From: an uncultured Alphaproteobacteria bacterium
Lineage (GTDB): Bacteria; Pseudomonadota; Alphaproteobacteria; Bin95
Reading direction: 5' to 3'
Length of the DNA: 64,000 nt
Assembly (NCBI GenBank): GCA_938083135.1
Contig: CALLKY010000005.1
Location: 62,001 to 126,000 of the forward strand
In this document: positions 13,476 through 29,660 of the stretch, piece after piece
Layout of the letters: each line of letters begins with the position of its first letter
How positions within the stretch are numbered: the first letter of the stretch is position 1
Made by a program: the position numbers and the translations under genes
Notes under the pieces: model-generated
Told to the model about the DNA's origin: nothing
Databases searched by the model: none
Seen by the model: the letters and a program-made list of their open reading frames with translations, nothing else

Positions 13476-14402
13476 TTACGCCGCGCGAATTCTGGGGCCA
13501 ACGGTGTAGCCCAAACCGAAGTTCAATGGCGTTAGCTTAAGCGCTCCGAGTGCGGCGGTAGATGCATCGGGGTCACCGATTGAGCGACGAATGTCACCGG
13601 CGCGCGGTGGGCCGAAATTGATTTCAGGCTGTGTATCGAACACAGCGCCTATTGTGTTTGCAAGGCCCAGGATATCTGTCGGTTGACCGGTGCATACATT
13701 GTAGACCGGGGCGGAGACGTCCGCGCGCTTCATTGCCTTTATCAAGCGCCGAACCACGTCTGCCACGTAGACAAAGTCCCGCTCCTGGCCGCCGTCGCCG
13801 AAGATCGTGATTGGTTTGCCAGCACTGATCCGGTCGCAGAGGATTGAGATAACACCGGAATAGGGTGACTTCGGGTCTTGGCGTGGGCCGTAAACATTGA
13901 AAAACCGAAGCCCCATCGTCGGCACGCCATGGACGCCGCCCGCCACGCGTGCATGCAGTTCACAGCCAAGCTTGTCGGCACCATAGGCGTTGAGTGGATG
14001 GGTCGTGGCGTCCTCTTTCAAGGGAGTGTTGGGGTTGTCGCCATAGACAGCGGCGGAGGATGCGTAGACCACCGGGATCGGCCCAGTTGCCTTTGCAGCG
14101 TCCAGAATGGCGATGGTGGCGGACTGGTTCACCCGGTGCGTCGCCAGCCATTCCATATTGGCGCGCTCGACAGAGGCGACGGCTGCCAAGTGGAAACAAC
14201 CGTCCATTCCATCCATGGAGCGGAGTGCGACGACCGGATCAGCTGCATCGCCGATCATTAATTGGGCGGCGTCTGGCGCGTTCGCCAGTTGTCCTGTGGA
14301 GAGATCATCCAGAATGCGCACGCTGTGCCCAGCCGCGATTAGCCCGTCCGCCAGATGGGAGCCGATGAACCCGCACCCCCCTGTCACCAAGTATTTCGCC
14401 AT
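13476..14402 (-). CDS. NAD-dependent UDP-sugar epimerase (GalE/PelX-like)
   Basis: A 308-aa extended SDR: GGCGFIGSHL NAD loop at residue 8, SSAAVYGD, the YGADK catalytic YxxxK, and RFFNVYGPRQ, typical of UDP-glucose/UDP-GlcNAc 4-epimerases and relatives. Pel is a galactosamine-rich polymer, and some Pel loci carry a UDP-GlcNAc 4-epimerase (PelX) to make the UDP-GalNAc precursor. This gene, about 3 kb before pelA, could serve that purpose; other nucleotide-sugar reactions are possible. It is transcribed away from the Pel genes. Confidence 0.82.
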   Translation of the reverse strand: MAKYLVTGGCGFIGSHLADGLIAAGHSVRILDDLSTGQLANAPDAAQLMIGDAADPVVALRSMDGMDGCFHLAAVASVERANMEWLATHRVNQSATIAILDAAKATGPIPVVYASSAAVYGDNPNTPLKEDATTHPLNAYGADKLGCELHARVAGGVHGVPTMGLRFFNVYGPRQDPKSPYSGVISILCDRISAGKPITIFGDGGQERDFVYVADVVRRLIKAMKRADVSAPVYNVCTGQPTDILGLANTIGAVFDTQPEINFGPPRAGDIRRSIGDPDASTAALGALKLTPLNFGLGYTVGPRIRAA

Positions 14403-14580: not shown

Positions 14581-15147
14581 ATGTTTCAAACGGCTTCGCG
14601 CACCCTGGTAGAGGGCATGCCGGCATTGCCGGTTCCCCCTTGGCAGGAAGCATTTGGTTTGGGGATGATCGCAGTCATGTGCGTTGGACTGACGGCGATC
14701 CTGTTTGCAATGGTGCTTGCCCGCGGCGTTTTCACGATGCGTCGTAACCGTCGAAGCATTCTGGCTGAACAGACCGCAGGCGCGGTGCTGGACATAAGCT
14801 TCCTGGAGAACCTGGCCCGTGCGACCCCGCCACAGCGGATGGGCGCACTTATGTATGCAATGGTTCGGGATTGTCGGGGCCGCATCTTGGACATCCGCGA
14901 GGCCGCGCGCGCTGGCGATTTAGACCGCCTGCAAAGTGAATCTTCCGCGCTTGCCCATTCCTGTGATGCCTTCGGCGCAACAGGTTTAGCGCACCATGCC
15001 CGAGGGTTGTTTTTTGCGGTCAGGGATCAGGCATTTGATGACGCTGGGCGATATATCGTGGAACTTGATGCAATTGCACAGATGACATTTGAGGCGCTAG
15101 AGCGCCGCGCGCCAGATTATGCTGATCCATCTCTGCGGGCGCACTAA
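14581..15147 (+). CDS. Membrane-anchored histidine phosphotransfer (HPt) protein
   Basis: A 188-aa protein with one N-terminal transmembrane segment (about 25-50: FGLGMIAVMCVGLTAILFAM) and a cytosolic HPt domain. The motif ALAHSCDAFGATGLAHHARGL fits HPt helix consensus HxxKGxxxxxGA, with H126 the probable phospho-accepting histidine. AGGAG precedes the ATG at a 7-base spacing. HPt proteins pass phosphate between hybrid kinases and response regulators. The adjacent sigma-54 regulator and the stand-alone receiver are natural partners, as in LuxU-LuxO; a membrane anchor on an HPt is unusual. The cognate kinase is not in the window. Confidence 0.72.
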   Translation: MFQTASRTLVEGMPALPVPPWQEAFGLGMIAVMCVGLTAILFAMVLARGVFTMRRNRRSILAEQTAGAVLDISFLENLARATPPQRMGALMYAMVRDCRGRILDIREAARAGDLDRLQSESSALAHSCDAFGATGLAHHARGLFFAVRDQAFDDAGRYIVELDAIAQMTFEALERRAPDYADPSLRAH

Positions 15148-15170
15148 ACAGCGCCTAGCACTTTCGTCGC

Positions 15171-16679
15171 CTAGCCCGCGAGTGCAGCGTCTATATCAAT
15201 GCCCCAGCGGGTGAGCTTGCGATAGATCGTTGAGGGGCTGACCTCCAGAAGTGCTGCTGCGCGCGGCACGTTCTGGCCAGTTTCATCAAGTGCGCGCTCA
15301 ATCATCACCCGTTCCATCTCCGCCAATGGCATGATCGGCAGATCGTGCAAGGAAGGTGCTTGGTGCTGCTCGCCTGCTGATTGGTGGTGATGTGCAGCGG
15401 CAATGTGCGCGCCACCACCGCCCGCATTTACTGCTGACGTCGGGCTGGGGCGCGGCGGCAGGCGCAGCGCATCCCGGTCTGTGAAGCTTCTGGCCATTTC
15501 GGGCAACGCAGATTGCAGCATTGGCGCATCGACAACATCAGCGTCATTCAGCACCACGACGTTCCGGATGACGTTTTGCAGCTCGCGGACATTGCCGGGC
15601 CACAAATGGCTCATCAGTAGATTTTCTGCAGCAGTGTCGAAGCCCTGGAAGCTGCGGCTTTCTTCTTCTGTCATGCCCGCCAGGAAAGCGTGGGCCAGCA
15701 ACATCACGTCCTGGTCGCGGTCACGGAGTGGCGGCATGTGAATGGGAATAACGTGGAGGCGGTAATAAAGGTCTTCCCGGAACCGGCCGGCAGCGACCTC
15801 CACCAGCGGATCACGGTTGGTAGCGGCGACGAAACGTACATCAACGCGCTCCACCTTTGATCCGCCGACGCGCGTGAACGTGCCCATCTGTACAAAGCGC
15901 AGCAGCTTCACCTGCAGATCGAGCGGCATTTCACCCAGCTCATCCAGGAAGAGCGTTCCGCCATCAGATCGCGCGGCGGCACCAATCCGGTCCGTTGTAG
16001 CACCCGTAAACGCGCCTTTTACATGGCCGAAAAGCTCACTTTCCATCAGGTCATGGGGAATGGCACCGCAATTGATTGCGATGAACGGCTTGTCGGCACG
16101 GGGGCTGCGTTGATGAATAGCGGCAGCGCAAAGCTCCTTGCCGGTACCCGATTCGCCGGTGACGAAGACGCTGGCCTTACTGGGGGCGGCACTATCAATG
16201 ATACGGTAGATCGCCTGCATGGCGAGCGATTTGCCAATGATGCCCTGGAACGCCCCGTCTTCCTGCTCCGGCCCGATTGTCTGAACAATACCGGATAGGC
16301 GCTTCTTCTCCAGCGCATTGCGGAGCGTGACGATCAGCCTGTCGCCGTTAAACGGTTTGACCAGAAAATCATCGGCTCCAGCGCGCATCGCCTCAACGGC
16401 TTTGCCGATCGTGCCATGGGCCGTTGCTACGATCACGGCAGGTGCCCCGGCACCAGTTTTCAACTGGTCCAGAATATCCAGGCCGTTCACATCCGGCAGC
16501 TGTAAATCCAGCAGAACCACGTCATAGGCGGTTTTAGCGGCCATTTCAGCCGCTTGTCGCCCCGTCTCAGCGTGATCCGACATGTGGCCATCGGCCAGGA
16601 CGAACTGCTCATACATTTGTGCCAGCGGTGGGGTGTCTTCAACAATGAGGACCCGTGCGCCGGCTTGCGCTTCAGCCAT
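15171..16679 (-). CDS. Sigma-54-dependent response regulator (NtrC/LuxO-like)
   Basis: A 502-aa activator in the standard order: receiver (about 8-125, phospho-site D58 in LLDLQLPD), AAA+ domain (about 145-385, Walker A GESGTGKE, sigma-54 contact GAFTGA, arginine finger region FREDLYYRL), histidine/glycine-rich linker, and a Fis-type HTH (RAAALLEVSPSTIYRKL). The ATG at 16679 has AGGGAG at a 9-base spacing; in-frame ATGs up to 16733 lack a site. It would activate sigma-54 promoters when phosphorylated, possibly via the neighbouring HPt protein. It is divergent from the receiver-pel operon and so well placed to control it. Confidence 0.92.
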   Translation of the reverse strand: MAEAQAGARVLIVEDTPPLAQMYEQFVLADGHMSDHAETGRQAAEMAAKTAYDVVLLDLQLPDVNGLDILDQLKTGAGAPAVIVATAHGTIGKAVEAMRAGADDFLVKPFNGDRLIVTLRNALEKKRLSGIVQTIGPEQEDGAFQGIIGKSLAMQAIYRIIDSAAPSKASVFVTGESGTGKELCAAAIHQRSPRADKPFIAINCGAIPHDLMESELFGHVKGAFTGATTDRIGAAARSDGGTLFLDELGEMPLDLQVKLLRFVQMGTFTRVGGSKVERVDVRFVAATNRDPLVEVAAGRFREDLYYRLHVIPIHMPPLRDRDQDVMLLAHAFLAGMTEEESRSFQGFDTAAENLLMSHLWPGNVRELQNVIRNVVVLNDADVVDAPMLQSALPEMARSFTDRDALRLPPRPSPTSAVNAGGGGAHIAAAHHHQSAGEQHQAPSLHDLPIMPLAEMERVMIERALDETGQNVPRAAALLEVSPSTIYRKLTRWGIDIDAALAG

Positions 16680-16819
16680 GCTGTGGCGCTCCCTAGACAT
16701 CTCGTGCAGGGCCATTGTGGCATCAGTAACCAAAAAAAAGGGTTTAAAGCGGTACCTTAAAGTTCATCGAATATCGAAAAGCGTGCATCCGTCAGCACGC
16801 CAGAGGATGGACAACCCCC

Positions 16820-17248
16820 ATGTCTGCGAACGCAGCACCTGCCCCAGAAGCCATTGATGATCAAATGGATGGCGCGGATATCACCGCCAAGACAATCCTG
16901 ATTGTGGATGACAGCCCATTGATCCGTAACCTGCTCACAAATTTCGTGCAGGAAATGGGGTTGCTGTCCCTGGAAGCAGGCAATGCCGCTGATGCGTTAG
17001 CCATAATTCGCAGTTCCAAGCCCGCATTGGTGCTGATGGATATCGTTATGCCCGGCGCAAACGGCGTGGAGGCGCTGCAGCAAATCCGGGATGATCCGGC
17101 CATTGCTGATGTGCCGGTGATCGCCGTGACGACACTGGCTGGCGGCCCGTCTGAGGATGACTTCATTACCGCAGGGTTTGACGCCTACATCCCAAAACCC
17201 CTGAACCTCAACCGCTTTGCTGAGGCGGTTCGCCGTCATATCCGGTGA
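16820..17248 (+). CDS. Stand-alone receiver (CheY/DivK-like), first gene of the pel operon
   Basis: A 142-aa single receiver domain after a short acidic leader: ILIVDDSP acidic pocket, phospho-site D74 in VLMDIVMPG, switch threonine in VTTLAGG and lysine in IPKPLN. All key residues are kept, unlike the two NarL-type proteins nearby. It has no output domain. Its stop overlaps the pelA start (GTGA), so it is made together with the Pel machinery and may sense or buffer the HPt phosphorelay. Confidence 0.9.
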   Translation: MSANAAPAPEAIDDQMDGADITAKTILIVDDSPLIRNLLTNFVQEMGLLSLEAGNAADALAIIRSSKPALVLMDIVMPGANGVEALQQIRDDPAIADVPVIAVTTLAGGPSEDDFITAGFDAYIPKPLNLNRFAEAVRRHIR

Positions 17249-19551
17249 GTGTGATGGGACGCTGGCTGATATCGCGATCTTCTATTCGAATCGTCACGTG
17301 GGCGGCGCTTTTTGCGGTCTTCCTGGCACCGCAACCGGCCTTAGCCGCACCTGGTCCAAACCAGGTAGCAGGGCCTACAGACGCGGAAGCGCCCGGGTTC
17401 ATTGAGCCGCGGACGATCTTAGCGCTGTATGATTCGCGCAATATTCCAGACCCGCGCAAAAGCTGGGCTAATCGCTATGCAGCGATGCCCCTTAATCAAA
17501 TTGGTTTGAAGGTGCGCTTCTGGGACTTAGCGCAAGGCCTGCCAGACGCTGCGGCCATGGATGATGTGCGCGGCGTGCTCGCATGGCTCTATAACGGTGC
17601 GCCTTTGAATGCAAAAAACTATCTGAATTGGGCCAATCAAGCTGTTGATGCCGGATACCGATATCTGGTGATGGGTAACATCACTGGCTCACTGTCCGAA
17701 TCTGCTGACCAAGAAACCTTCGACCTAGCGAAACGCCTGATAGCGAAGCTGGGCGTGCGCTTGGGTGGCCGGTTTGTAGCCTCCCCATACCGCGCACGTT
17801 ACCCCATCTATGACAAAAGCGCTGTTGGGCTTGAATGGGACATCACGAAAGGGCCAGAGGGTTTCCAGGAATCTGGCCTGGCTACCGGGGTTAGCGCGCG
17901 TGCATTTCTGACCGTAGATGCTGGCCCGCCCTTGCGGGAACAAGGCGTTCTCGTCGCGACCAGCGTGCACGGCGGATATGTGCAGGCGAGCCATGAAATT
18001 GCTGTTGGTGATGGCAAGGCACAGTGGATCATTGATCCATTTACCGTAATGACTGCGGCCTTCGCGGCTGGTGATCTGCCGAAGCCTGATACCACAACAG
18101 CCGTAGGCCGCCGTATCTATTACAGCCACATCGACGGTGATGGCTGGCGGAATCTCTCTACAGTTAACGGTGTGGCTGCAACGCCAGTTTTGGCGGCAGA
18201 TGTCATTTTTGATAAAGCGATCCGTGCCTACCAGGACCTACCCGTAACCGTGGCACCTGTTATGGGGGATCTGGACCCGGATTGGTTTGGCGCTGAACCA
18301 GCGCTGGAGGCTGCAAGGCGCATTTTCGCGCATCCCAACGTAGAGGCGGCGCATCACACATACAGCCACCCCTTCGCCTGGGGGTTTTTTGAGGATTACG
18401 ACGCTGAATTAGAGAAAGCGACGTCGACCGGAGATGGGTTTGGGCGTCTGCGCCCCGCCCATAAACGTGTGTCAGAGGATGATCCGCTTTTTGGCTATGA
18501 CCAGGTGCGGGCCTATATGCTCAAGCCTTTTGATTTGCATCAGGAGATTGTGGGGGCGAAGCAGTTTCTGGAATCAATACTGCCGCCTGGGAAATCTGTT
18601 GAGTTGGTCCAATGGTCCGGCGATACGCTCCCGTTCCCAAAGGCCCTTCAAGCAGTTGAGCTCGCTGGCCTCCTCAATATTAACGGTGGCGATACGCGCT
18701 ATGATCCTGAATATCCGTCTATCTCAACTGTGGCACCAATTGGTGTGCAGATAGATGGTGGGCTGCAAATATACGCTTCAGCCAGTAATGAAAATACCTA
18801 TACCGGGCTTTGGACCCGGCGCTTCTATGGCTTCCGATTCTTGCAGGAAACGCTCCGGGGCACGGAGGCACCGCGTCGCCTGAAGCCAATAAATATCTAT
18901 TATCATATGTACACAGGTGCGAAGTCGGCAGCTCTAAAAGCGCTGCTTCAGAACTTGGATGCGGCGCGTGCCACTGAAATCGCGCCCATAAAAACCAGCG
19001 ACTTTGTGCGTATTGCTGAAGGCTTCTTCACGACGGGTTTGGAACGTCTTGCTGACGGTCGCTGGCGCATCCGGGATCGTGGCAACCTGAACACGATCCG
19101 ATTTAGCGGTCTGAACAACGCCGTGGATTATGCCCGGAGTCAGGGCATTCTGGGCCATCGGTTCGTGAACAGCGACCTGTATGTCGCCCTTGACCCTGTA
19201 GCGACGGCGCCGCTGATCGCATTGCAGCCAGCCAATAGCGCTTCGTCCGCCAGACCCGTTCTGGAGCAAGGCCGCTGGTTGACCGAACGGCTTGTGATCA
19301 ATGAAAACGGCTTCGCATTCAATGCAAGAGGCTATGGCGATGGTGCCTATCTCTGGCGCGCGGTACAGCCCGGCGGATATGTGATCGAGGCCCGGCGGCA
19401 AGGGCAGGTCGTGTGGTCAGGCGCTGCCGAATCTGACCAATCCGGCACACTTGCATTCTCCGTGCAGGCCGATGCGGTAGCAGGGGTCTCCGTTACAGTC
19501 CGGCACCGGTCGCTGGCCGGTCGATCAATGGGGCAGGGCGGCGCGCAATGA
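17245..19551 (+). CDS. pelA: PelA-like polysaccharide deacetylase lacking the hydrolase domain
   Basis: A 768-aa exported protein (signal peptide ending PQPALA at about 35). The N-terminal part (about 55-240) resembles the flavodoxin/reductase-like middle domain of PelA. The deacetylase core follows, with the motifs YSHIDGDG (H295, D297, D299) and HHTYSHPFAWGF (H371, H375), which supply metal ligands and catalytic base in PelA-type deacetylases. The Pseudomonas PelA of about 948 residues begins with a glycoside-hydrolase (GH166) barrel; no counterpart is seen here or elsewhere in the window. It should partly deacetylate Pel in the periplasm. The GTG at 17245 overlaps the receiver stop, and an ATG at 17254 is an alternative start. 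Confidence 0.85.
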   Translation: MSVMGRWLISRSSIRIVTWAALFAVFLAPQPALAAPGPNQVAGPTDAEAPGFIEPRTILALYDSRNIPDPRKSWANRYAAMPLNQIGLKVRFWDLAQGLPDAAAMDDVRGVLAWLYNGAPLNAKNYLNWANQAVDAGYRYLVMGNITGSLSESADQETFDLAKRLIAKLGVRLGGRFVASPYRARYPIYDKSAVGLEWDITKGPEGFQESGLATGVSARAFLTVDAGPPLREQGVLVATSVHGGYVQASHEIAVGDGKAQWIIDPFTVMTAAFAAGDLPKPDTTTAVGRRIYYSHIDGDGWRNLSTVNGVAATPVLAADVIFDKAIRAYQDLPVTVAPVMGDLDPDWFGAEPALEAARRIFAHPNVEAAHHTYSHPFAWGFFEDYDAELEKATSTGDGFGRLRPAHKRVSEDDPLFGYDQVRAYMLKPFDLHQEIVGAKQFLESILPPGKSVELVQWSGDTLPFPKALQAVELAGLLNINGGDTRYDPEYPSISTVAPIGVQIDGGLQIYASASNENTYTGLWTRRFYGFRFLQETLRGTEAPRRLKPINIYYHMYTGAKSAALKALLQNLDAARATEIAPIKTSDFVRIAEGFFTTGLERLADGRWRIRDRGNLNTIRFSGLNNAVDYARSQGILGHRFVNSDLYVALDPVATAPLIALQPANSASSARPVLEQGRWLTERLVINENGFAFNARGYGDGAYLWRAVQPGGYVIEARRQGQVVWSGAAESDQSGTLAFSVQADAVAGVSVTVRHRSLAGRSMGQGGAQ

Positions 19552-22500
19552 AACAGCCGTTCCCAATTGCCGCGACCATTTTTGCGGGCGGCGCATTAAT
19601 GCTCAGCTTTGTCATGCTGCCCGGCGATAATGAAATGGGCGCGATGGATCTTCGCGACCAAAGTTATGACGGTGCTGTTGCGAGTTATGAGCTAGCCGCG
19701 ACCCATGGCGACAGATCGAAAGCCACGCTCGCCCAGCTTGCGCGCGCTTATGCCGGGTCCGGCGATATCGATAAAACGATTGGCGTGTACCGCGATTATC
19801 TGAGCCGTGAGCCAGATCATCTTGAGGCGAAACTTGCGCTGCTTGAAGCCTATAACGACGGCCAGCGGATGGATGATTACTATCGCCTGCTCAAAGACGT
19901 TGCGCTGAACAGCGATGACACCGCACACCTCCGCACCCTCTATGAGGCGGCGGTGATGCGCCAGGATTTGCCCGTTGAAGAACAGGCGTTAACTGCATTG
20001 TCAGCCAAGGGTGCAGCAGAACCAGACCATCTCCGCCGTCTTGCATTCTTGCTGGCACAGAACGCGCGGTTCAAAGACGCCGCCCGCGTGCTGGACCAAA
20101 TCCCGGCCCGGTCACGCACACAGCAGCAGGTGATTGAGGACTCCCGTTTGGCATTCCGCCTGGCGTTGGATGCTGAGGACCCAAATCGCGCGGAAGCTAT
20201 TGCCAGCCGGGCATTGCATCGGCGGGATGATTTCTCGAGCGCTGGCGGTTTCATCGAAACGTTGAGCGGCTATGGCTATCAGGAGGCAGCCTATCGTGTC
20301 ATCGCGCGGCTCGATCCGGGAAATGATCCAGCCCTGCAGTTACAGCGTGCAGGGCTCAAACTGTCTGTCGGTGATAGAGCGGGTGCAGCGGCTGAAGCGC
20401 GGGCGGTGTATGACGCAGCACCAAATGATGCCATTCGCAGAGAGGCCGCTGGTCTCCTGTCCGATACCGGCGATCAGCAGGCACTTGCAGCGCTGACTGC
20501 CGATGGCGGTTTTGCGACCCTATCGCTGGACCGGCAGCGCGCGGTGATCGATGCGCACCTGGATGGGGGCAATGTGGCCGCTGCTAAGGCAGCGATGAAT
20601 GGTGCTGGGCCTGAATTCGTTGAAAGCAATCCTGTGCTGGCCGCGCGCGTGGCATTGGCTGCGGGTGCGAAGAGAGACGCCCGGCGGATCATCGCTAAGG
20701 CGCTGGTCCAAGCGCAGAGCGGCGGTACTGAAATTGTTGAACTGGCGATCCTCGCCGAAGACGTTGGTGATGGTGCATCTGCGCGCCGGGCTGCTGCAAA
20801 GTTCCCACCGCCCGCGCGCGCCAATGCTGCGCAGCTTGAGGCGATGGCGCGGTTTTATGTGCAGTTCGGCCAAGCGAAAGCGAGATTGCCAGCATTTGCT
20901 GCCCTTCGTCAGTCTTCGCCAGGGCCAGCGGTTGACCGCGCTTGGGTTCGGCTCGCCACGGCTGCGGGCGACCTAAAACCTGTCAGCGCCTGGCTGAAAC
21001 AGACTGCTGATGTCCCGGTTGGTGTTCTCTATGACATTGCGAACGCAGCCATAAAGCGCCGCGCTTACCCCCTTGCTCGGGAAGCCGGTGAGCGGATCGC
21101 GGCTGAAACGCCGACCCGACAGAACAAATCTTATTTGGCTTATATCCGCCATAAAACGGGTGACCATCGCGCCGCCATCGCATTGCTCAGCGCGATCAAG
21201 CCGCTCAATCGGGATGAGCAACAGCTCTATGCCGCATCCGCGCTCGCTAGTGGCGACCAACGGCTTGTGGCTCAAACCCTGGGGCGCGATCTGAAGCGCG
21301 GCGGTAAAGCGGCGACACAGGCGCTGCACGGCTTGATCGCTGCTGGCGCCTTCACTACAGCCGAACCCGAAATGGCGCGGCGCATTCAGGCGGGCGAGAC
21401 AGACTGGCTCTACAGCTATGGGGCCGCTGCAAAGAAGCGCGGCCAGACCAAACGATTTGTGGCGTTCGTTCAGGCGAATGCGTTCAATACAGGTGCTCCC
21501 GCCGCTGTTGCTGAAGCCGGGATTTCGTCCGTCGCGGAAGCGGCTGGGCAGGACGTTGCGTTGGATCTCCGCCGCATTGCCGCTGAACGGTTCGGCGGGA
21601 AGTGGGCGGAAGCTTATGAATTCGCGTTGATCGAAGCTGGCCGCAAAGACGTAGCGACGGCCTCGCGTGTGCGCCGTGCGTCGAGCGGTGCATTGCCGAA
21701 GCAAAAGCGGATCGAACTCGCTGACGCCCTAGCCGCCGATGGTCGCAAGCGTGAGGCAGAGGCGATTTACCGCCAATTGGCGGAAACGGCCGGCGCGAGG
21801 TCTGTCGCCGTTGAGCGGCTGCTGTACCTTTGGGGGCCGCGCCCGAGTGCGGATGCAAAGTCGTGGTTGGCACTTAGAGCACGGCAAGCAAAAGCGCCGG
21901 AGGCCCGCAGACTATGGCGTCGGCATATGATCGATTTCGGCGCTGGTGAAGATGTATTCCGCCAGATTGTCGCTGCACCCGGTGCGGCTGATCCGGCGGA
22001 CATGCGCATGGCGGCGGAATTGGCACCATCCGTGCGGGATAAGCGCACTGCTGCTGGGGGCCTTGCGGGGCTGATTGGTGCCGCGCGAGATACAGGCGCG
22101 TTGGTCGCACTTTCAAATGCCAGCGAAAACTTGGGCGATAAACGCTCTGCCTATGCCGCCATCGCGCGCGCTGCCCAGGCGGCACCGGATAACCCGAATG
22201 TGTTGCGGCGTGCGGGGTATCTGGGCCTGTCGCTTGGGCGCCCGAATGAAGCCTATGCCGCATTGTCTCGCTATGTCGCAATCCGACCTGCGGATGCCAG
22301 TGCTGCCATGGATTTCGCCGCAGCGGCTGAACGGCTTGGCCGCTATAGCGAAGCGGCAGAAGCCTATGGCCGGGCGGCGTTGACGTTCCGCCGCACGCGC
22401 CAGGATGAAACGCCCGCCCGCCTCGCAGAGGCCTATGCCCTGCAGAAAGCCGGAAAGAGAAATGACGCCATTGCAGCCCTTGCCGGTTTGGCCGAGGCCC

Positions 22501-22592
22501 GCCCCCGTGACGCCCGCGCCCGGGCCGCATATGTCGCAGCACTCCTGGATGCAGGTCGCGCTGAGGAGGCCAAACGTGCGCTTAATCGCTAA
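19548..22592 (+). CDS. pelB: PelB-like periplasmic TPR scaffold (N-terminal half of PelB)
   Basis: A 1014-aa protein with one N-terminal membrane anchor (about 7-24) followed almost entirely by TPR-like helical repeats (for example at about 60-110 and 860-1010). This corresponds to the TPR part of PelB, which spans the periplasm and brings PelA to the secretion pore. It lacks any beta-barrel; that part is encoded by the next gene, which starts 17 bases before this one ends. It overlaps the pelA stop (ATGA). Sequence identity with known PelB cannot be measured here; position and architecture support the call. Confidence 0.75.
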   Translation: MKQPFPIAATIFAGGALMLSFVMLPGDNEMGAMDLRDQSYDGAVASYELAATHGDRSKATLAQLARAYAGSGDIDKTIGVYRDYLSREPDHLEAKLALLEAYNDGQRMDDYYRLLKDVALNSDDTAHLRTLYEAAVMRQDLPVEEQALTALSAKGAAEPDHLRRLAFLLAQNARFKDAARVLDQIPARSRTQQQVIEDSRLAFRLALDAEDPNRAEAIASRALHRRDDFSSAGGFIETLSGYGYQEAAYRVIARLDPGNDPALQLQRAGLKLSVGDRAGAAAEARAVYDAAPNDAIRREAAGLLSDTGDQQALAALTADGGFATLSLDRQRAVIDAHLDGGNVAAAKAAMNGAGPEFVESNPVLAARVALAAGAKRDARRIIAKALVQAQSGGTEIVELAILAEDVGDGASARRAAAKFPPPARANAAQLEAMARFYVQFGQAKARLPAFAALRQSSPGPAVDRAWVRLATAAGDLKPVSAWLKQTADVPVGVLYDIANAAIKRRAYPLAREAGERIAAETPTRQNKSYLAYIRHKTGDHRAAIALLSAIKPLNRDEQQLYAASALASGDQRLVAQTLGRDLKRGGKAATQALHGLIAAGAFTTAEPEMARRIQAGETDWLYSYGAAAKKRGQTKRFVAFVQANAFNTGAPAAVAEAGISSVAEAAGQDVALDLRRIAAERFGGKWAEAYEFALIEAGRKDVATASRVRRASSGALPKQKRIELADALAADGRKREAEAIYRQLAETAGARSVAVERLLYLWGPRPSADAKSWLALRARQAKAPEARRLWRRHMIDFGAGEDVFRQIVAAPGAADPADMRMAAELAPSVRDKRTAAGGLAGLIGAARDTGALVALSNASENLGDKRSAYAAIARAAQAAPDNPNVLRRAGYLGLSLGRPNEAYAALSRYVAIRPADASAAMDFAAAAERLGRYSEAAEAYGRAALTFRRTRQDETPARLAEAYALQKAGKRNDAIAALAGLAEARPRDARARAAYVAALLDAGRAEEAKRALNR

Positions 22593-24213
22593 AACCCTAA
22601 CCGTATGCGCCTTTCTGGCTGTGCTTGCGCCAGTCGCGGCACCGGCAAACGCTGCGACTGTCCGTGACTGGCGGGCTGGCGAAGCGTTGATGGTCGATAT
22701 CGACACCGGCCAATCGACACAGGCCGTCATGCGCCGCGCTGAAGGTGAGATCTATTTTCAGTTCTCAGGCCCGCTTGGCAGCAGTGCGGAATTGGACCAA
22801 TTGGCGCTCAAATATCCAGATGACCTGCGCGCTGTTCGTTCAGGCTTCGATAGTGTTGTGATGACGGCTGCGCGTCCGGGCCAGTTCCAAGCTTGGACAA
22901 CGCCCCAGGGTGTTCGTGTTGCTTTTACGCCTGCCGCCGGTCTTGGCGTCGCCCGCCTTCAGCCTGATGTGATTGAACCTGCAGCAGACCAAGCGGCGGC
23001 GGAACGGCGGCTGCAAGTGCTACGAGGGCGGGTCGAGCTTGCGACCGGACAGCCTGAAGCAGCAGTTGCCTCTTTGCAGGCAGCCCGTGCGCAGAACCCT
23101 AATGACCCAGAAACGTTGGCTGCATTGGCCGCTGCAGAAACCGAACTTGGGCACCCTGGCCGTGCCCTCGCATATCTCGACCAGGCCATCGCTAGCCGTC
23201 CTGATGATCCAGATCTCGCCCGTGACCGTGCCCGGCTGGCCCGCGATACGGGTTCATATGTTGAAGCCTTTGCTGGATATCGGGACACAGATGATTCTGA
23301 TGATATTGGGACCGGTGGTGTGCGTCTTGCCGCGCGCTATGGCCAGCGCTGGCGGCTCGCAGCGGAAGGGGTGATCAGTCATATTGATGCGCCTGTCGTG
23401 CAGCGCGTTGATGGCCGGGTGACACCGGTTGAGAAGACCTTTGGTCGGGGGCAGGCCAGCATCGCCTATGCCTGGACGCCCGACCACGAAACGGCTGCCA
23501 CGCTTTATGGCGCAGAGCACGGGCCGGGCATTGGTTTGGCGCACCGGGCTGGTCCGCAAACCGCGCGGACGACTATCGCAGCCGCTATCGGTGAGCCATA
23601 TCATGATGAGGTTGCTGGCATCGCCGATCGGGGGCGGCACCATAGTGTAGCGCTTGGTCATGAGCGCCGGTTCGATGCGAATTGGTCTGCGGGTGTGTCT
23701 GGCGGCCTAAATCAATACGGTGTCCGTGGTGATGAAAACGTATCCCGCACCGCAAGCGGCACGCTGAATGTTCGGCGCCGGATCTATAATCAAGCACCGT
23801 TCTTCGTGGATGCCGGATACGGCCTTGATGCGGAATATGTGATTGAAGATGACGAGCGCCTGGATACCGGCGGGAACATCTTTACGCCGCTTGGCATTGA
23901 GAAGCGCGAAGTGCACTTCGGTGATGTGTCAGCGACGGCAACAGTCGCGACCGGTTTGTCGGTCTCTGGCACGCTCGGCTACGGCATCGACCGGTTTGGC
24001 GGTGATGGCATGACCGCGGCGGGCTCCATCAATTGGGAGCCATCGCCGGATTGGAAACTAGGGGTTTCTGCCTCCCGCAGCTTCGCAGCGACCCGCGGTG
24101 ATAACGATACGGTCACTAACTTCGGGCTTTATGTGCGGCGTCGCATCGGTGCGCCTTTGCAGGCGACGCCAGTCCCACCCGCCAATGCGCCAACAGGAGC
24201 GGTTCAACGATGA
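22576..24213 (+). CDS. PelB-like outer-membrane porin (C-terminal half of PelB)
   Basis: The GTG at 22576 is chosen because GAGGAGG lies 6 bases upstream and the codon opens a clean signal peptide (VRLIAKTLTVCAFLAV..., cleavage after ANA). The 545-aa product has an N-terminal domain of about 170 residues, two or three TPR-like repeats (about 155-235), and a C-terminal region of alternating short strands (about 250-530: GVRLAARYG, LAAEGVISH, ATLYGAEHG, GLYVRRRIG) typical of a beta-barrel. PelB of Pseudomonas joins a TPR scaffold and a 16-strand barrel in one chain; here they are separate. The product should form the Pel export pore. Confidence 0.75.
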   Translation: MRLIAKTLTVCAFLAVLAPVAAPANAATVRDWRAGEALMVDIDTGQSTQAVMRRAEGEIYFQFSGPLGSSAELDQLALKYPDDLRAVRSGFDSVVMTAARPGQFQAWTTPQGVRVAFTPAAGLGVARLQPDVIEPAADQAAAERRLQVLRGRVELATGQPEAAVASLQAARAQNPNDPETLAALAAAETELGHPGRALAYLDQAIASRPDDPDLARDRARLARDTGSYVEAFAGYRDTDDSDDIGTGGVRLAARYGQRWRLAAEGVISHIDAPVVQRVDGRVTPVEKTFGRGQASIAYAWTPDHETAATLYGAEHGPGIGLAHRAGPQTARTTIAAAIGEPYHDEVAGIADRGRHHSVALGHERRFDANWSAGVSGGLNQYGVRGDENVSRTASGTLNVRRRIYNQAPFFVDAGYGLDAEYVIEDDERLDTGGNIFTPLGIEKREVHFGDVSATATVATGLSVSGTLGYGIDRFGGDGMTAAGSINWEPSPDWKLGVSASRSFAATRGDNDTVTNFGLYVRRRIGAPLQATPVPPANAPTGAVQR

Positions 24214-25595
24214 AAGACATCCGCGCCAAATTCGAGCCATTTGAGAAGCGCTTTAATTCAACCCGTAAGGGCCGCGCTGCCTTTGGCTTATCGGCCTCTG
24301 CGCTGGTGGAATTGGCGATTTTCTTCGCCATCGCGTTCATCATTGATTTCCTGGTGTTCGGCGGAACCCGCTTCCAGGGCCTGCAGCCGCACCCCTTCTG
24401 GATTCCTGTGATCCTGCTCAGCGTGCAGTACGGCACAAGCGAAGGCTTGCTGGCGGCGGTTATATCGACCATCGCCCTATTGCTTGGCGCGCTGCCAGAG
24501 CAACGGTTTGGCCAAGACATTTACGATTACCTGCAGGCTGTCGCAGTAGAACCGCTGATGTGGTTTATCGCAGCCATTATCGTTGGTGAACTGGCCATGC
24601 GTCGCCGCCGTCGCCTTGCCAGGACTGAGCAGGAATTGGCCGATGTCCGCCAGGAAGCTGACGGTCTCGCAGAAGCCTATGCCAAAGCCCGCCAAGCTAA
24701 GGACACACTGGAAGCACGGCTGGCCAGTGACCTCACGACAACCCTTTCGCTGTATCAGGGCGCGCGGGCCGTTGAACGTTCTAGTGTCGGGAATGTGCTG
24801 ACGGGGGCCGTTGAGCTGATCCGCCGTGTGCTGGACCCGGATATGTTCTCGATCTACCTGCTGAACGGCTCGCAGCTTGAAGCAGCAGTCCAGGAAGGCT
24901 GGGAGGACGACGCAAAACAAGCCCGCGTGTTCGCCGCTGATTCAGCACTCTACCAGGCGATTGCGGCGGAGGAGCGGATGTTATGTGCGGCACATGCCGA
25001 TGACGCGCGCATTCTAACCGGTGAAGGCGTGCTCGCAGCGCCGCTCTTGGGCGGTCCATCAGGGCAACCGGTTGGCATGCTGAAGATTGAAGCGCTGTCA
25101 TTCGCAGACTTAACGACAAGTTCCGTTGAAACATTCCGGCTCTGCTCCGAATGGATCGGAAGTGCCTTAGAGCGTGCGCGGCGCCAGGAAGCATTGGCGG
25201 CGGGGCAAGTCACGGCGGGGGGCGGGGCGACGCTTTCGGCTGCGCTTTATTCCCATGAAGTTGATCTGATGACCCGGCTTGGTGCGCGCTTCGGGTTCGA
25301 TGTGGCGCAACTGGTCGTCGATGCGGAATTGGCCCATGCGCTGTCTGCGGATGATAAACGCGGCTTTGCAACAGCCCTGGCGGCGGCGGCGAAAGAAGCG
25401 CTCCGCGATACGGACCTGACATTCGATATGGGCCGCCATGGTCGTCAATACGCAATCCTGTTGCCCGGTGCGGACGCAGAGAGCGCCGACATTGCAGCCC
25501 GTCGTTTGGAAGCTGCATTGAGCCGGTTGGCCCCAGCTGCAGCGACAGCGGGGCGGGTCGCCGTTCGTGCTGAAACGCTGGAACTGGCTGCATGA
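24210..25595 (+). CDS. pelD: PelD-like c-di-GMP receptor (TM + GAF + degenerate GGDEF)
   Basis: A 461-aa inner-membrane protein with about four hydrophobic segments in residues 25-135, an arginine-rich helix and coiled-coil stretch (135-180), a GAF domain (about 190-320) and a GGDEF-like domain (about 345-455). The signature is lost (GRHGRQY in place of GGDEF), so no cyclase activity is expected. The inhibitory-site motif RDTD (R399-D402) just before it matches the RxxD that binds c-di-GMP in PelD. c-di-GMP binding to PelD switches on Pel polymerisation. Start overlaps the previous stop (ATGA). Confidence 0.9.
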   Translation: MKDIRAKFEPFEKRFNSTRKGRAAFGLSASALVELAIFFAIAFIIDFLVFGGTRFQGLQPHPFWIPVILLSVQYGTSEGLLAAVISTIALLLGALPEQRFGQDIYDYLQAVAVEPLMWFIAAIIVGELAMRRRRRLARTEQELADVRQEADGLAEAYAKARQAKDTLEARLASDLTTTLSLYQGARAVERSSVGNVLTGAVELIRRVLDPDMFSIYLLNGSQLEAAVQEGWEDDAKQARVFAADSALYQAIAAEERMLCAAHADDARILTGEGVLAAPLLGGPSGQPVGMLKIEALSFADLTTSSVETFRLCSEWIGSALERARRQEALAAGQVTAGGGATLSAALYSHEVDLMTRLGARFGFDVAQLVVDAELAHALSADDKRGFATALAAAAKEALRDTDLTFDMGRHGRQYAILLPGADAESADIAARRLEAALSRLAPAAATAGRVAVRAETLELAA

Positions 25596-26710
25596 CCGCT
25601 GAAACGCTTCCCCAGGACCGACTTGCAGATCCGCGCATCAAAAAGCGCGGTGACCTCCGCCGGGCGCAGAAACAAGAAACCGTCCTTGCCGGATTGCTGT
25701 CGATCCTGGCAGAAGGCTTGCTGACACTCGGTGTGGCCTCCATGCCAGCGCTTTGGCCGGTATGGCTGCTTGGGCATGTTGTTGTGTCTGCGATTTTGAT
25801 TTTTTGGGCGCACCGCATGCGTCGCCGCCGTCGTGCGCGCCGGTTCCCGGCATTGCTGGCGATTTGCACCGCGACGCTTGGGCTAGCAGGTGCGATTGGC
25901 GTGATGTTTGCCGCCCTTGGCCAACGGGCATATCGCAGTGAGGCGCGCTCATTTCAGGTTTGGTACTACACGCTGTTTCCACCCCGAACCCAACGCACGG
26001 CCCGGGCTTGGTATGACTTAAGCCAGGCGCTTGGGGACGAGGACAGCGGCGGCGTTGAGTCCTTCACGGACTTGATTCGTTATGGTGAGATCGATCAGAA
26101 GCTGGCTGTTGTCGCCCTGTTGGCCAGGCGCTTTGATCCCCGTTTTGCACCAGCACTACACGCAGCATTGAATGACCCAGACCCGACCGTTCGTGTGCAG
26201 GCCGCAACAGCTGCCGCGCACATTGAAGATGATTTCGTTGATCGCTGGGTCGTCTCCAAACGCCGCGCCGACGCCCGCAAAAGTGATCCTGCGGCGCAAA
26301 TGGAACTGGCGGAACTGCTTGATGCCTACGCATTCACAGACATTTTGGACGAGCGCCGCGAGGCTGAGCTTCGCCGCGAAGCTGAATCCCAATATCGCCG
26401 TGTGATCGAGATTGAGCCGCGCCATGCCCGTGCGCACATGCTGCTTGGCCGGTTGCTGTTGCGCACAGACCGCCCAAGAGATGCGCTTGCTGTCCTCCGC
26501 CCATTGGAAGCCGATTTGTCCCCAGAAGCGGCAGGCTGGCTGATGGAAGCATTATTCCAGCTTGGGCAGTTCGACGAATTGAAGCGTGTGATTAATGAAG
26601 CGCCAGATGGTGTTCTGCCAGATCGGCTTGCCGCATCCGCTGCATTGTGGCATGGCGACTTGCCCCCTGCACCACACAAACCCGCGCCCGCCCAGGAGGC
26701 AGCCGCATGA
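25592..26710 (+). CDS. pelE: PelE-like inner-membrane TPR protein
   Basis: A 372-aa protein with two transmembrane segments (about 28-70 and 85-110) and a C-terminal helical-repeat region (about 130-350), matching PelE, which links PelD to the synthase complex. It sits exactly between pelD and pelF with 4-base overlaps on both sides. Sequence conservation of PelE is weak, so order and topology carry the call. Confidence 0.82.
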   Translation: MTAETLPQDRLADPRIKKRGDLRRAQKQETVLAGLLSILAEGLLTLGVASMPALWPVWLLGHVVVSAILIFWAHRMRRRRRARRFPALLAICTATLGLAGAIGVMFAALGQRAYRSEARSFQVWYYTLFPPRTQRTARAWYDLSQALGDEDSGGVESFTDLIRYGEIDQKLAVVALLARRFDPRFAPALHAALNDPDPTVRVQAATAAAHIEDDFVDRWVVSKRRADARKSDPAAQMELAELLDAYAFTDILDERREAELRREAESQYRRVIEIEPRHARAHMLLGRLLLRTDRPRDALAVLRPLEADLSPEAAGWLMEALFQLGQFDELKRVINEAPDGVLPDRLAASAALWHGDLPPAPHKPAPAQEAAA

Positions 26711-28260
26711 GCCAGTCCAGCCAGCAAGCGGATATCTGTTTGATCCTTGAAGGCGCATATCCATTCGTATCTGGCGGCGTTTCGTCCTGGATGCACGATA
26801 TGATCAAAGGCCAGCCGGACCTGACTTTCCATCTGGTCGCCCTGACGCCAGAACGCGAGCAACCAGAGCTGCGCTATGAATTGCCGGAAAACGTCATTGG
26901 GTTCGATGTGACGCCGCTGCAACTGCGGTCCTCTGGCGGTCGTCGCATGCGGAAGCTGGACCGGCTGTTTGAAGCGTTGGAAGACCCGCTCAGCCGACTT
27001 CTCAGCCGGGGCGAACTTAGCGACCTGGCAGAAGTGATGGCTATCCTCAAGCAGGAAAAGGGTGAGCTTGGCACGGCCCAACTGCTGGATTCCGAAGCGG
27101 CATGGCGGCTGACGGAGCGACTTTATGTGAAGCTGTTGCCTGGCGCGTCGTTCCTGGATTTCTTCTGGAGCTGGCGGGCCTTAATGGGTGGCTTGTTTCA
27201 GATGTTGTTAACGCCGCTGCCGCAAGCGCGCGCCTATCACACGATTTCAACTGGCTATGCTGGCCTGCTTGCGGCCCGCGCTCGGATTGAAACCAACCGC
27301 CCCGCCATTTTGACCGAGCACGGCATCTACACCAATGAACGCCGTATTGAAATCGCCATGGCGGACTGGCTGCATGAACGTGCGCCGACCGGGTTCAGCC
27401 TGAAGCGCGCAAAGCGGGACTTGCGGGAATTCTGGATTGACGCATTCCGCAGCTATGCCCGCGTTGCGTATCAGGCGATTGACCCGATTGTGACGCTCTA
27501 TACCGGCAACCAGATCATGCAGCGCCGTGATGGCGCGCCCGAATCCGCTCTTCGCGTGATCCCGAACGGCGTCGATTATGGGCGGTTCAGCCGAATTGAA
27601 CGGGATCAGGCGGCGCGCCCGCCGCAGATTGCGCTGATTGGCCGGGTCGTGCCGATCAAGGACGTCAAAACCTATATCCGCGCTGCCGCAGTCCTGAAGC
27701 AGCGCTTCCCGGACCTGGTGGCTTATGTGATGGGGCCAGATGAAGAAGACCCGGTCTATGCCAAGGAATGTCGGACATTGGCTGCTCACTTAGGCGTTTC
27801 GGACACGGTGCAATTCACAGGCTCAGTTAAGCTGGATGATTATCTAGGCCAATTGGATGCAATCGCGCTGACGTCTCTATCCGAGGCCCAGCCCTTGGTG
27901 GTGCTTGAAGCGGGTGCCGCTGGCGTGCCATCGGTGACGACAGATGTGGGCTGCTGCCGTGAGCTCATTTTTGGGCAAGCCTCAGAAGACCCGCCGTTCG
28001 GGGCAGGCGGTGCAGTGACCGCAGGCGCAGATCCAGAAGCGACGGCCAATGCACTTGGCGCTATCCTTGCGGACCCAGCCCGGCGCACTGCTATGGGCAA
28101 GGCCATGCAGCAGCGGGTTAAGGCCAGCTATGACAAGCCAGATATTCTGGCGGTCTATAACGAACTCTATTGGAATGCTGCGCGCGCGCCAGATTTGGGG
28201 ACGGTTCAAACCACCAGCGATGCCCCTGCCCAGCGCCCACAGATTGAGGAGGCGGCCTAA
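26707..28260 (+). CDS. pelF: PelF glycosyltransferase (GT4)
   Basis: A 517-aa soluble GT-B glycosyltransferase close in length to PelF of Pseudomonas. Visible motifs are ICLILEGAYPFVSGGVSSW at the N terminus, the EHGIYTNERRIEI block, NGVDYGRFS, and the GT4 donor-site ExxxxxxxE in SEAQPLVVLEAG. It polymerises UDP-GalNAc (or a related UDP-sugar) into Pel on the cytosolic side. The ATG at 26707 overlaps the pelE stop; an upstream in-frame ATG at 26647 lies inside pelE. Confidence 0.95.
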   Translation: MSQSSQQADICLILEGAYPFVSGGVSSWMHDMIKGQPDLTFHLVALTPEREQPELRYELPENVIGFDVTPLQLRSSGGRRMRKLDRLFEALEDPLSRLLSRGELSDLAEVMAILKQEKGELGTAQLLDSEAAWRLTERLYVKLLPGASFLDFFWSWRALMGGLFQMLLTPLPQARAYHTISTGYAGLLAARARIETNRPAILTEHGIYTNERRIEIAMADWLHERAPTGFSLKRAKRDLREFWIDAFRSYARVAYQAIDPIVTLYTGNQIMQRRDGAPESALRVIPNGVDYGRFSRIERDQAARPPQIALIGRVVPIKDVKTYIRAAAVLKQRFPDLVAYVMGPDEEDPVYAKECRTLAAHLGVSDTVQFTGSVKLDDYLGQLDAIALTSLSEAQPLVVLEAGAAGVPSVTTDVGCCRELIFGQASEDPPFGAGGAVTAGADPEATANALGAILADPARRTAMGKAMQQRVKASYDKPDILAVYNELYWNAARAPDLGTVQTTSDAPAQRPQIEEAA

Positions 28261-29660
28261 TGGCGGGTGTAGGGTTCGCACTCCGCCGATTGGCGGACCG
28301 GTCTGACTTGGGTGGTGCAGCCCAGGCCTATTTGCACGCGACAGTGATCACCAGCGGCCCTTGGCTGATGACGATCCTAGCGCTCGCAGGCGTGGCTTAT
28401 CTGACGGAGGGTGTGGTTGATCCAAGCCATGCGCTCGCGTTCCGAACTGTGCTGATCTACACGTTCTGCATCACGCTTTGTTTGACAGGCGGGCCGACAA
28501 TGGTCGCCTCCCGGATGATGGCGGATATGATCTTCGCCCGGCGGATGGGCGAGGCCTCCAGCCTGATTGTGGCGCTATATGCGGTGTCGCTTGGCGCGTC
28601 CCTATTGGTGGCTGCACCCCTGTTCTTCTTGATTGCAGACCTATCACCAAGCGCCTCTGTCGCTGCTGTGGTGAATTTTGGGCTTTTAGCGGCGGTATGG
28701 GCCGGGGCCACGTTCATCACCGCGCTGAAGGATTATTGGACGATCACCATCGCCTTTGCCGTCGGCATGATAATGGCCTTCGTCATGGCGCTCTGGCTTG
28801 GCGGCATGTACCAGACATCAGGCTTGTTGTGGGGCTTCAATATTGGCCTTGGCGCAATCGCCTTTGCTTTGCTGGGGCGGATCTTGGCGGAATATCCATC
28901 TGACGTGCGCAACGTGCAGAATCTGGGCAAGCGTCTGCGACCGCTCTGGCCGTATCTGGTCGTTGGCGCGCTGCATAATCTTGGCGGATGGTCGGACAAA
29001 TGGATCATGTGGTGGGCGGCACCAGAAGCGCAGAGCGCCATCAACCTGCCATTTTATTCCCATTATGACGGGGCGATGTTCGCGGCATATTTGACCATGA
29101 TTCCAGCACTGGCCGCGTTTACCTTGCATGTGGAGACCGGTTTCTTCGAACGTTACCGCCGCTTCTACGATGACATCGCCGATCACGCGACACTGCCAGA
29201 AATCACCCGCGCCCATAGGAACTTGATGGAAACGCTGTTTGGCGGGCTTCGGAACCTTGTGGTTCTGCAAGCGGCTGTAACAGTGACCGCACTGCTTGCG
29301 GTGCCCACACTGGTGGAAATGCTGGATATGGATTTCCGGCAGGTCGGCATGCTGCGCTTCGGCATTCTGGGTGCGGCGTTTCATATGCTGATCGTCGTGG
29401 CGACGATTCTGCTCTGCTACTTTGATCTGCGTTACGACAACATGCGCCTGCAGGCTGTGTTCCTTGGCACAAACGTCATCGGTGCCATTGGCTCAAGCGC
29501 CGCCGGGTTCCCATTCTATGGTTATGGCTATTTCCTGGCTGCGATGGTGACGGCGCTTTATGGGCTGTGGTTGGTTTATCGCCGCGTTGGCAAGCTGCCC
29601 TACATCACCTACGTGACGAACAACCCATCCCTCCGCTCGAATGCGGATGCTTTAATCTAG
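28260..29660 (+). CDS. pelG: PelG inner-membrane Pel transporter (MOP-like)
   Basis: A 466-aa polytopic membrane protein with about twelve hydrophobic segments, matching PelG, the Wzx/MATE-like partner of PelF in polymer synthesis and transport. The start overlaps the pelF stop (TAATG). It is the last gene of the operon; the following 70 bases hold no obvious terminator before the next gene. Confidence 0.93.
   Translation: MAGVGFALRRLADRSDLGGAAQAYLHATVITSGPWLMTILALAGVAYLTEGVVDPSHALAFRTVLIYTFCITLCLTGGPTMVASRMMADMIFARRMGEASSLIVALYAVSLGASLLVAAPLFFLIADLSPSASVAAVVNFGLLAAVWAGATFITALKDYWTITIAFAVGMIMAFVMALWLGGMYQTSGLLWGFNIGLGAIAFALLGRILAEYPSDVRNVQNLGKRLRPLWPYLVVGALHNLGGWSDKWIMWWAAPEAQSAINLPFYSHYDGAMFAAYLTMIPALAAFTLHVETGFFERYRRFYDDIADHATLPEITRAHRNLMETLFGGLRNLVVLQAAVTVTALLAVPTLVEMLDMDFRQVGMLRFGILGAAFHMLIVVATILLCYFDLRYDNMRLQAVFLGTNVIGAIGSSAAGFPFYGYGYFLAAMVTALYGLWLVYRRVGKLPYITYVTNNPSLRSNADALI

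Follow-up and report, generated by a model that had tools for sequence, protein, structure and literature searches.

A Pel operon with two pelB genes and no pelC

The window, a stretch of 64,000 nucleotides within contig 5 of an alphaproteobacterial assembly (G000; 4.15 Mb, 163 contigs, 99.99% complete), carries a seven-gene Pel operon at 17245-29660 on the forward strand, in the order pelA-pelB1-pelB2-pelD-pelE-pelF-pelG. Two genes stand in the place of pelB, and pelC is missing. By open reading frame (ORF) coordinates, consecutive genes overlap at all six junctions, by 4, 17, 4, 4, 4, and 1 bp. The genes are as follows.

17245-19551 (+): pelA, 768 amino acids (aa), CE21-like deacetylase without a GH166 hydrolase domain
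19548-22592 (+): pelB1, 1014 aa, tetratricopeptide repeat (TPR) scaffold with an uncleaved N-terminal membrane helix (TPR models)
22576-24213 (+): pelB2, 545 aa counted from a GTG start (the open frame starts at 22405), outer-membrane exporter
24210-24213 (+): overlap of pelB2 and pelD, 4 bp, the position that pelC occupies in loci L031, L035, and L036
24210-25595 (+): pelD, GAF and degenerate GGDEF domains (PF13492), predicted receptor of cyclic diguanosine monophosphate (c-di-GMP), with RDTD at the I-site position
25592-26710 (+): pelE, membrane-anchored TPR protein (TPR matches)
26707-28260 (+): pelF, start ATG at 26707, GT4 glycosyltransferase, the polymerase (NF038011)
28260-29660 (+): pelG, inner-membrane transporter (PF16933)

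The Pel assignment is carried by the adjacent GT4 glycosyltransferase and transporter genes: PelF matches the equivalog model NF038011 with E 1.9e-134 and 449 bits against a cut-off of 100, and PelG matches PF16933 with E 9e-109 and 365 bits. PelA, PelD, and PelE can be aligned with canonical relatives, and the RDTD of PelD falls on the RxxD I-site, which is invariant in the alignment, canonical PelD included. These matches and the ORFs bear out the original prediction, made from the letters of the window, that pelA, D, E, F, and G lie in canonical order with every junction overlapping. Compared with the P. aeruginosa system (pelABCDEFG; PelBC structure 9h80), the operon shares the order of A, D, E, F, and G, a PelB made of a TPR rod with an uncleaved N-terminal helix and a 16-strand barrel, the RxxD of PelD, and the deacetylase motifs of PelA, whereas it differs in having a two-chain PelB, a longer rod, an added AMIN-like domain, no PelC, and a PelA without GH166.

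PelB1 and PelB2 correspond to the parts of PelB

The two pelB genes had been described as encoding a 1014-aa anchored TPR protein and a 545-aa exported protein ending in a beta-barrel, and the ORFs, their targeting signals, and a structural model of PelB2 agree with that description. Their parts are as follows.

19566-19622 (+): predicted inner-membrane anchor of PelB1 (hydrophobic window, residues 7-25)
22576-22650 (+): cleavable signal peptide of PelB2, with an ANA cleavage motif
22657-22932 (+): AMIN-like beta domain of PelB2, residues 28-119, eight strands
22978-23250 (+): three terminal TPRs of PelB2 (model and TPR Pfam matches)
23254-24147 (+): beta-barrel of PelB2, 16 strands, a short helix separating strand 7 from strand 8 (DSSP of the model)

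PelB1 has the layout of a periplasmic TPR scaffold with an uncleaved inner-membrane helix: the hydrophobic helix at residues 7-25 has no AxA cleavage site, and the TPRs lie further on. A motif common to all homologues, '..LLLIPR..ELAL..' with a conserved LP/IP, follows the helix and reads FVMLPGDNEMGAM in the window. The fold of PelB2 is predicted with good confidence as a PelB-type exporter with a 16-strand C-terminal barrel; the AlphaFold2 model has a predicted local distance difference test (pLDDT) score of 89.2, and its best solved match is chain M of 9h80, the PelB of PelBC (E 3.6e-17), followed by BcsC and PgaA. The helix that separates strands 7 and 8 in the model occupies the position of Plug-I in PelB, and the predicted outer-membrane part keeps the plan of PelB, BcsC, and PgaA. 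Profile-profile comparison points the same way, with a profile of 32 PelB2 sequences aligning to residues 816-1194 of canonical PelB (E 7.4e-7). The Pfam family PF24604 did not reach E 0.1 with the window PelB2 and matched 12 of the 32 homologues at E<=1, and single-sequence searches of PDB sequences with PelB1 and PelB2 returned only generic TPR proteins.

PelB1 and PelB2 are equated with PelB because fused homologues (L040, L056, L065, L078, L092, L095, L106, and L112) combine the two parts in a single chain, with their position and order unchanged. The claim that the two together equal PelB holds in this sense, that each part has its counterpart, and fails in extent: the pair amounts to 1559 aa against the 1193 aa of P. 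aeruginosa PelB (PMC12022489), with a longer rod and the added AMIN-like domain. P. aeruginosa PelB has been proposed to be a single chain bridging both membranes by means of an uncleaved N-terminal helix (PMC12141448, PMC12022489). In the window, scaffold and barrel are instead two ORFs, each with its own signal, and this covalent inter-membrane bridge is broken.

Because the two genes overlap in different frames, such a split could be mimicked by an error of sequencing or assembly or by decay of pelB, and the original prediction had named a frame-joining error as what would overturn it. We give this explanation practically no credence, as the two-gene layout recurs in dozens of genomes, complete ones included, with separate targeting signals: sequence comparison finds an uncleaved anchor on PelB1 and a cleavable signal on PelB2 in many of them. 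The genus-mate G002 repeats the same 17-bp overlap, and in L037 the two are separated by a pair of unrelated genes, of which one encodes a homoserine succinyltransferase. In the complete, single-contig genome G187 the genes are unlinked, with PelB1 at 1.20-1.21 Mb and PelB2 near 4.14 Mb; since they lie megabases apart, the two chains are real.

PelG was found in 22 of 387 sampled alphaproteobacterial genomes, and PelB is split in every alphaproteobacterial locus with a readable pelB region except L040, where it is fused. A two-gene PelB is therefore the rule for alphaproteobacterial Pel loci. Split PelBs also occur in gammaproteobacterial, magnetococcal, nitrospinotal, lambdaproteobacterial, and myxococcal loci of metagenome-assembled genomes (MAGs) and in Caldimonas. 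In L041 (9359-10777) the cut falls after the AMIN-like domain rather than before it, leaving that domain on PelB1. L041, whose GH166 gene is on another contig, sits inside a clade of fused PelBs; given this position and its different cut point, PelB fission has happened more than once. A 'pelB fission' has been published for aquatic thermophilic species (PMC7112194, Fig 5 iii). There, too, pelB lies in more than one locus, but the case was described as a gene-order event in another group, and the text consulted is silent on PelC, an added domain, and targeting signals. As a type of event the split is already known, and among relatives it is common. In L068 (4380-7337), L109, and L185, PelB1 is present in the Pel locus with no recognisable PelB2 there, and L088 and L104 (Methylobacterium, Hyphomicrobium) have short PelB1-like proteins only.

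PelC is absent, independently of the split

The 4-bp overlap of pelB2 and pelD holds no intervening gene and leaves pelC no room, in keeping with the original prediction. A PelC gene elsewhere in the genome would have undone that prediction, and none was found in G000 with PelC profiles of first five and then nineteen sequences; with the same profiles, true PelCs in control genomes score 197-246 bits. Both locus and genome thus lack the lipoprotein that the PelBC structure paper treats as a hallmark of Gram-negative Pel, while calling its necessity 'puzzling' when BcsC and PgaA manage without it (PMC12141448). The PelC profile likewise gave no match at E 0.1 in the genomes of Paeniroseomonas, two Sphingomonas, and Azospirillum oleiclasticum.

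Other members of the split branch do have PelC. Lipoproteins of about 190 aa lie between pelB2 and pelD (or pelF) in L030, L031, L033, L035, and L036, and match the PelC structures 5t0z and 9h80_C. The Azospirillum-type loci (L035, L047, L049, L059, and L066) resemble the window in their split PelB1 and PelB2, domains, and gene order, and differ in having pelC between pelB2 and pelD; L035, where the upstream region is visible, differs also in a separate GH166 gene before pelA. All four combinations were seen. A split PelB is common both with PelC (as in Azospirillum, Thalassospira, and Magnetococcales) and without it; a fused PelB stands without PelC in acidobacterial and chlamydial MAG loci and together with it in the Pseudomonas type. 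PelC loss is therefore independent of the PelB split, and the view that the two belong together, or make this locus exceptional, finds no support. A tree of PelF+PelG from 81 loci shows eight changes of PelC state, at least six of them forced by well-supported branches; this is a quick tree with some long branches, which fixes neither the direction nor the exact number of changes. All 10 canonical beta- and gammaproteobacterial loci in the tree have PelC.

Where the split branch keeps PelC, the way it docks is probably different. Asp119 in the D-loop of P. aeruginosa PelC (Gly117-Leu-Asp-Gly120) docks onto arginines of PelB (PMC12141448), and the loop reads G[L/V]DGEP in all eight canonical sequences aligned. 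In 10 of 11 split-branch PelCs (e.g. L031:9888-10478) it reads GL[R/K]EEP, with Arg or Lys replacing the Asp; the exception, a variant, is the second copy in L081. It is this replacement in the sequence that suggests a change of docking chemistry. The periplasmic barrel turns of PelB2 are more acidic in PelC-plus than in PelC-minus loci (D+E 13.9 against 9.5), in a set dominated by Azospirillum, and the turn charge of the PelC-minus A. oleiclasticum resembles that of its PelC-bearing sister species. Tandem PelC gene pairs occur in three gammaproteobacterial MAG Pel loci (L081, 5917-7358; L069; L086), which suggests a hetero-oligomeric ring.

A non-homologous lipoprotein or oligomer encoded elsewhere could replace PelC and retain a ring. 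P. aeruginosa cannot do without PelC (PMC12141448), and an unrelated substitute would be invisible to homology searches. We nevertheless consider it unlikely: the overlapping junctions leave no candidate inside the operon, PelC is missing also beside the simple fused PelBs of acidobacterial and chlamydial MAG loci, and the next structural neighbours, BcsC and PgaA, need no such lipoprotein (PMC12141448).

An AMIN-like domain at the PelB cut site

Modelled alone, the added domain of PelB2 reaches pLDDT 94.7, and its two best PDB matches are the B2 domain of PilQ (4aqz, E 0.008) and AmiC (4bin, E 0.014), both with probability 1.00. It is present in nearly all split PelB2s and in several fused PelBs as well, in each case after the TPR rod and before the terminal TPRs, in the window exactly at the point where PelB is cut, and is not found in canonical PelB, in most acidobacterial fused PelBs, or in chlamydial fused PelBs. 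The Minwuia family (L032, L034, and L037) and L180 carry the domain in two copies; the genome with the two-domain PelB2 at L032:9667-11910 encodes its PelB1 far away. The Nitrospinota loci L062 (2986-4908) and L074 have an extra protein between PelB1 and PelB2, with an AMIN-like domain and TPRs and no barrel.

AMIN domains, which in AmiC and PilQ have a double four-stranded beta fold, generally serve in envelope localisation or peptidoglycan binding, and by analogy this one is likely to tie PelB2 to peptidoglycan or to PelB1. That it took over the role of PelC, permitting PelC loss, we regard as very improbable. Nearly all split PelB2s contain the domain, and no sampled canonical, PelC-dependent PelB does; but Azospirillum, Thalassospira, and Magnetococcales have it alongside PelC, and the fused PelBs of Acidobacteria and chlamydiae occur with neither. 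These counter-examples speak against it as a simple PelC substitute, and, because of the PelBs that lack both, PelC loss is left unexplained by it.

PelA lacks the GH166 hydrolase

PelA departs from the canonical type, a point that the original prediction missed. The window PelA is 42% identical to the Azospirillum-type protein and 29% to canonical PelA, and in alignment retains the deacetylase motifs HIDGDG and HTYSHPF (HxxxHPF). Canonical PelA has an N-terminal GH166 hydrolase (PF03537); the window protein begins after this region, the hydrolase columns being missing from the alignment, and has no match to Pfam, PF03537 included. In 12 loci (L010, L035, L036, L039, L040, L042, L052, L054, L064, L068, L085, and L109) a separate GH166 gene lies directly upstream of pelA. 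A profile of these relatives' genes found no match in G000, against 284-438 bits in five control genomes, and the sole PF03537 protein of G000 is of the GH114 type, on another contig; operon and genome thus have neither a GH166 domain nor a GH166 gene. In P. aeruginosa, secreted Pel depends on this hydrolase activity, and adherent biomass rises when it is lost (PMC9894940). Given this effect and the missing GH166, we would predict that the polymer of the window operon stays long and cell-attached.

The altered exporter could also reflect a different cargo, a Pel-like polymer whose sugar or modification departs from the partially deacetylated alpha-1,4 GalNAc/GalN of Pel. The PelF and PelG of the branch lie far from the canonical clade in the tree, PelA has no hydrolase domain, and the D-loop charge of the branch's PelC is swapped. 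On the other side, PelF scores above the equivalog cut-off and the PelA deacetylase motifs are retained. We treat a different cargo as a minority possibility.

A proposed export path

We put at roughly 75% the probability that the window holds an intact synthase-dependent exopolysaccharide operon of Pel type, belonging to a broad branch outside Pseudomonas, that exports through a two-part, non-covalent PelB1-PelB2 conduit with no PelC ring. PelF would polymerise the chain, and PelD, PelE, and PelG would carry it across the inner membrane, with PelD subjecting the process to control by c-di-GMP. PelB1 in the inner membrane would guide it along the TPR rod and dock non-covalently on the outer-membrane PelB2, where PelA would deacetylate the polymer; the three TPRs of PelB2 may then feed the gated 16-strand barrel, so that export would proceed without a PelC ring, as in BcsC and PgaA. 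Besides a possible PelC substitute, two points weigh against this interpretation. The AMIN-like identity depends on fold matches of moderate E-value (0.008-0.014) with no sequence family match, AMIN being absent from the Pfam families listed for PelB2 homologues, and PelB1 without a recognisable PelB2 in the loci L068 and L109 raises the prospect that PelB1 may have other partners.

The exporter is likely BcsC/PgaA-like, with a non-covalent contact spanning the envelope. BcsC (cellulose) and PgaA (poly-N-acetylglucosamine) combine TPRs with a 16-strand barrel and have no lipoprotein ring; unlike PelB1-PelB2, each is a single chain and serves another polymer and synthase. In alginate export the TPR scaffold AlgK, which is a lipoprotein, and the 18-strand barrel AlgE are separate proteins, like PelB1 and PelB2, whereas the TPR rod of the window is anchored in the inner membrane. 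That system has been named as AlgX-AlgK-AlgE (PMC12022489). The assertion that the export path must be built differently from that of Pseudomonas proves too strong: the inter-membrane tether and the lack of a ring do differ, while the outer-membrane part, as predicted, keeps the PelB/BcsC/PgaA plan.

More broadly, we consider it an even bet that PelC is an accessory rather than a core component of Gram-negative Pel export, lost (or gained) many times, and that a large branch uses a non-covalent, ring-free conduit of an inner-membrane TPR rod and a peptidoglycan-held AMIN-TPR-barrel porin. An earlier survey of the field used PelC as its search query (PMC7112168) and would for that reason have missed PelC-free systems. 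Many were found here, among them A. oleiclasticum beside PelC-bearing sister species, a pairing that makes the need for PelC directly testable. Repeated loss lets one ask why some bacteria need the PelC ring, and the two-chain PelB probes whether the single covalent inter-membrane bridge proposed for P. aeruginosa is needed. A literature search for Pel genes in Alphaproteobacteria found nothing, and in the literature searched there appears to be no description of widespread Pel export that runs without PelC through a two-chain conduit.

Genes beside the operon

One further gene probably belongs to the operon as its first gene, by its 4-bp overlap with pelA.

16820-17248 (+): CheY-like receiver gene (PF00072, E 1.6e-23)

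Together with a membrane-anchored protein that matches Hpt weakly (14581-15147, +) and a LuxO/NtrC-type sigma-54 activator adjoining the operon (15171-16733, -), it forms a phosphorelay-like set at 14581-17248. A sigma-54 promoter for the operon, an idea taken from the LuxO-like neighbour, was rejected: the window has 52 matches against 47 expected, none of them just upstream of 16820. A nicotinamide adenine dinucleotide-dependent epimerase at 13476-14402 possibly supplies uridine diphosphate N-acetylgalactosamine, and a similar epimerase lies directly upstream of the hydrolase-pelA pair in L068.

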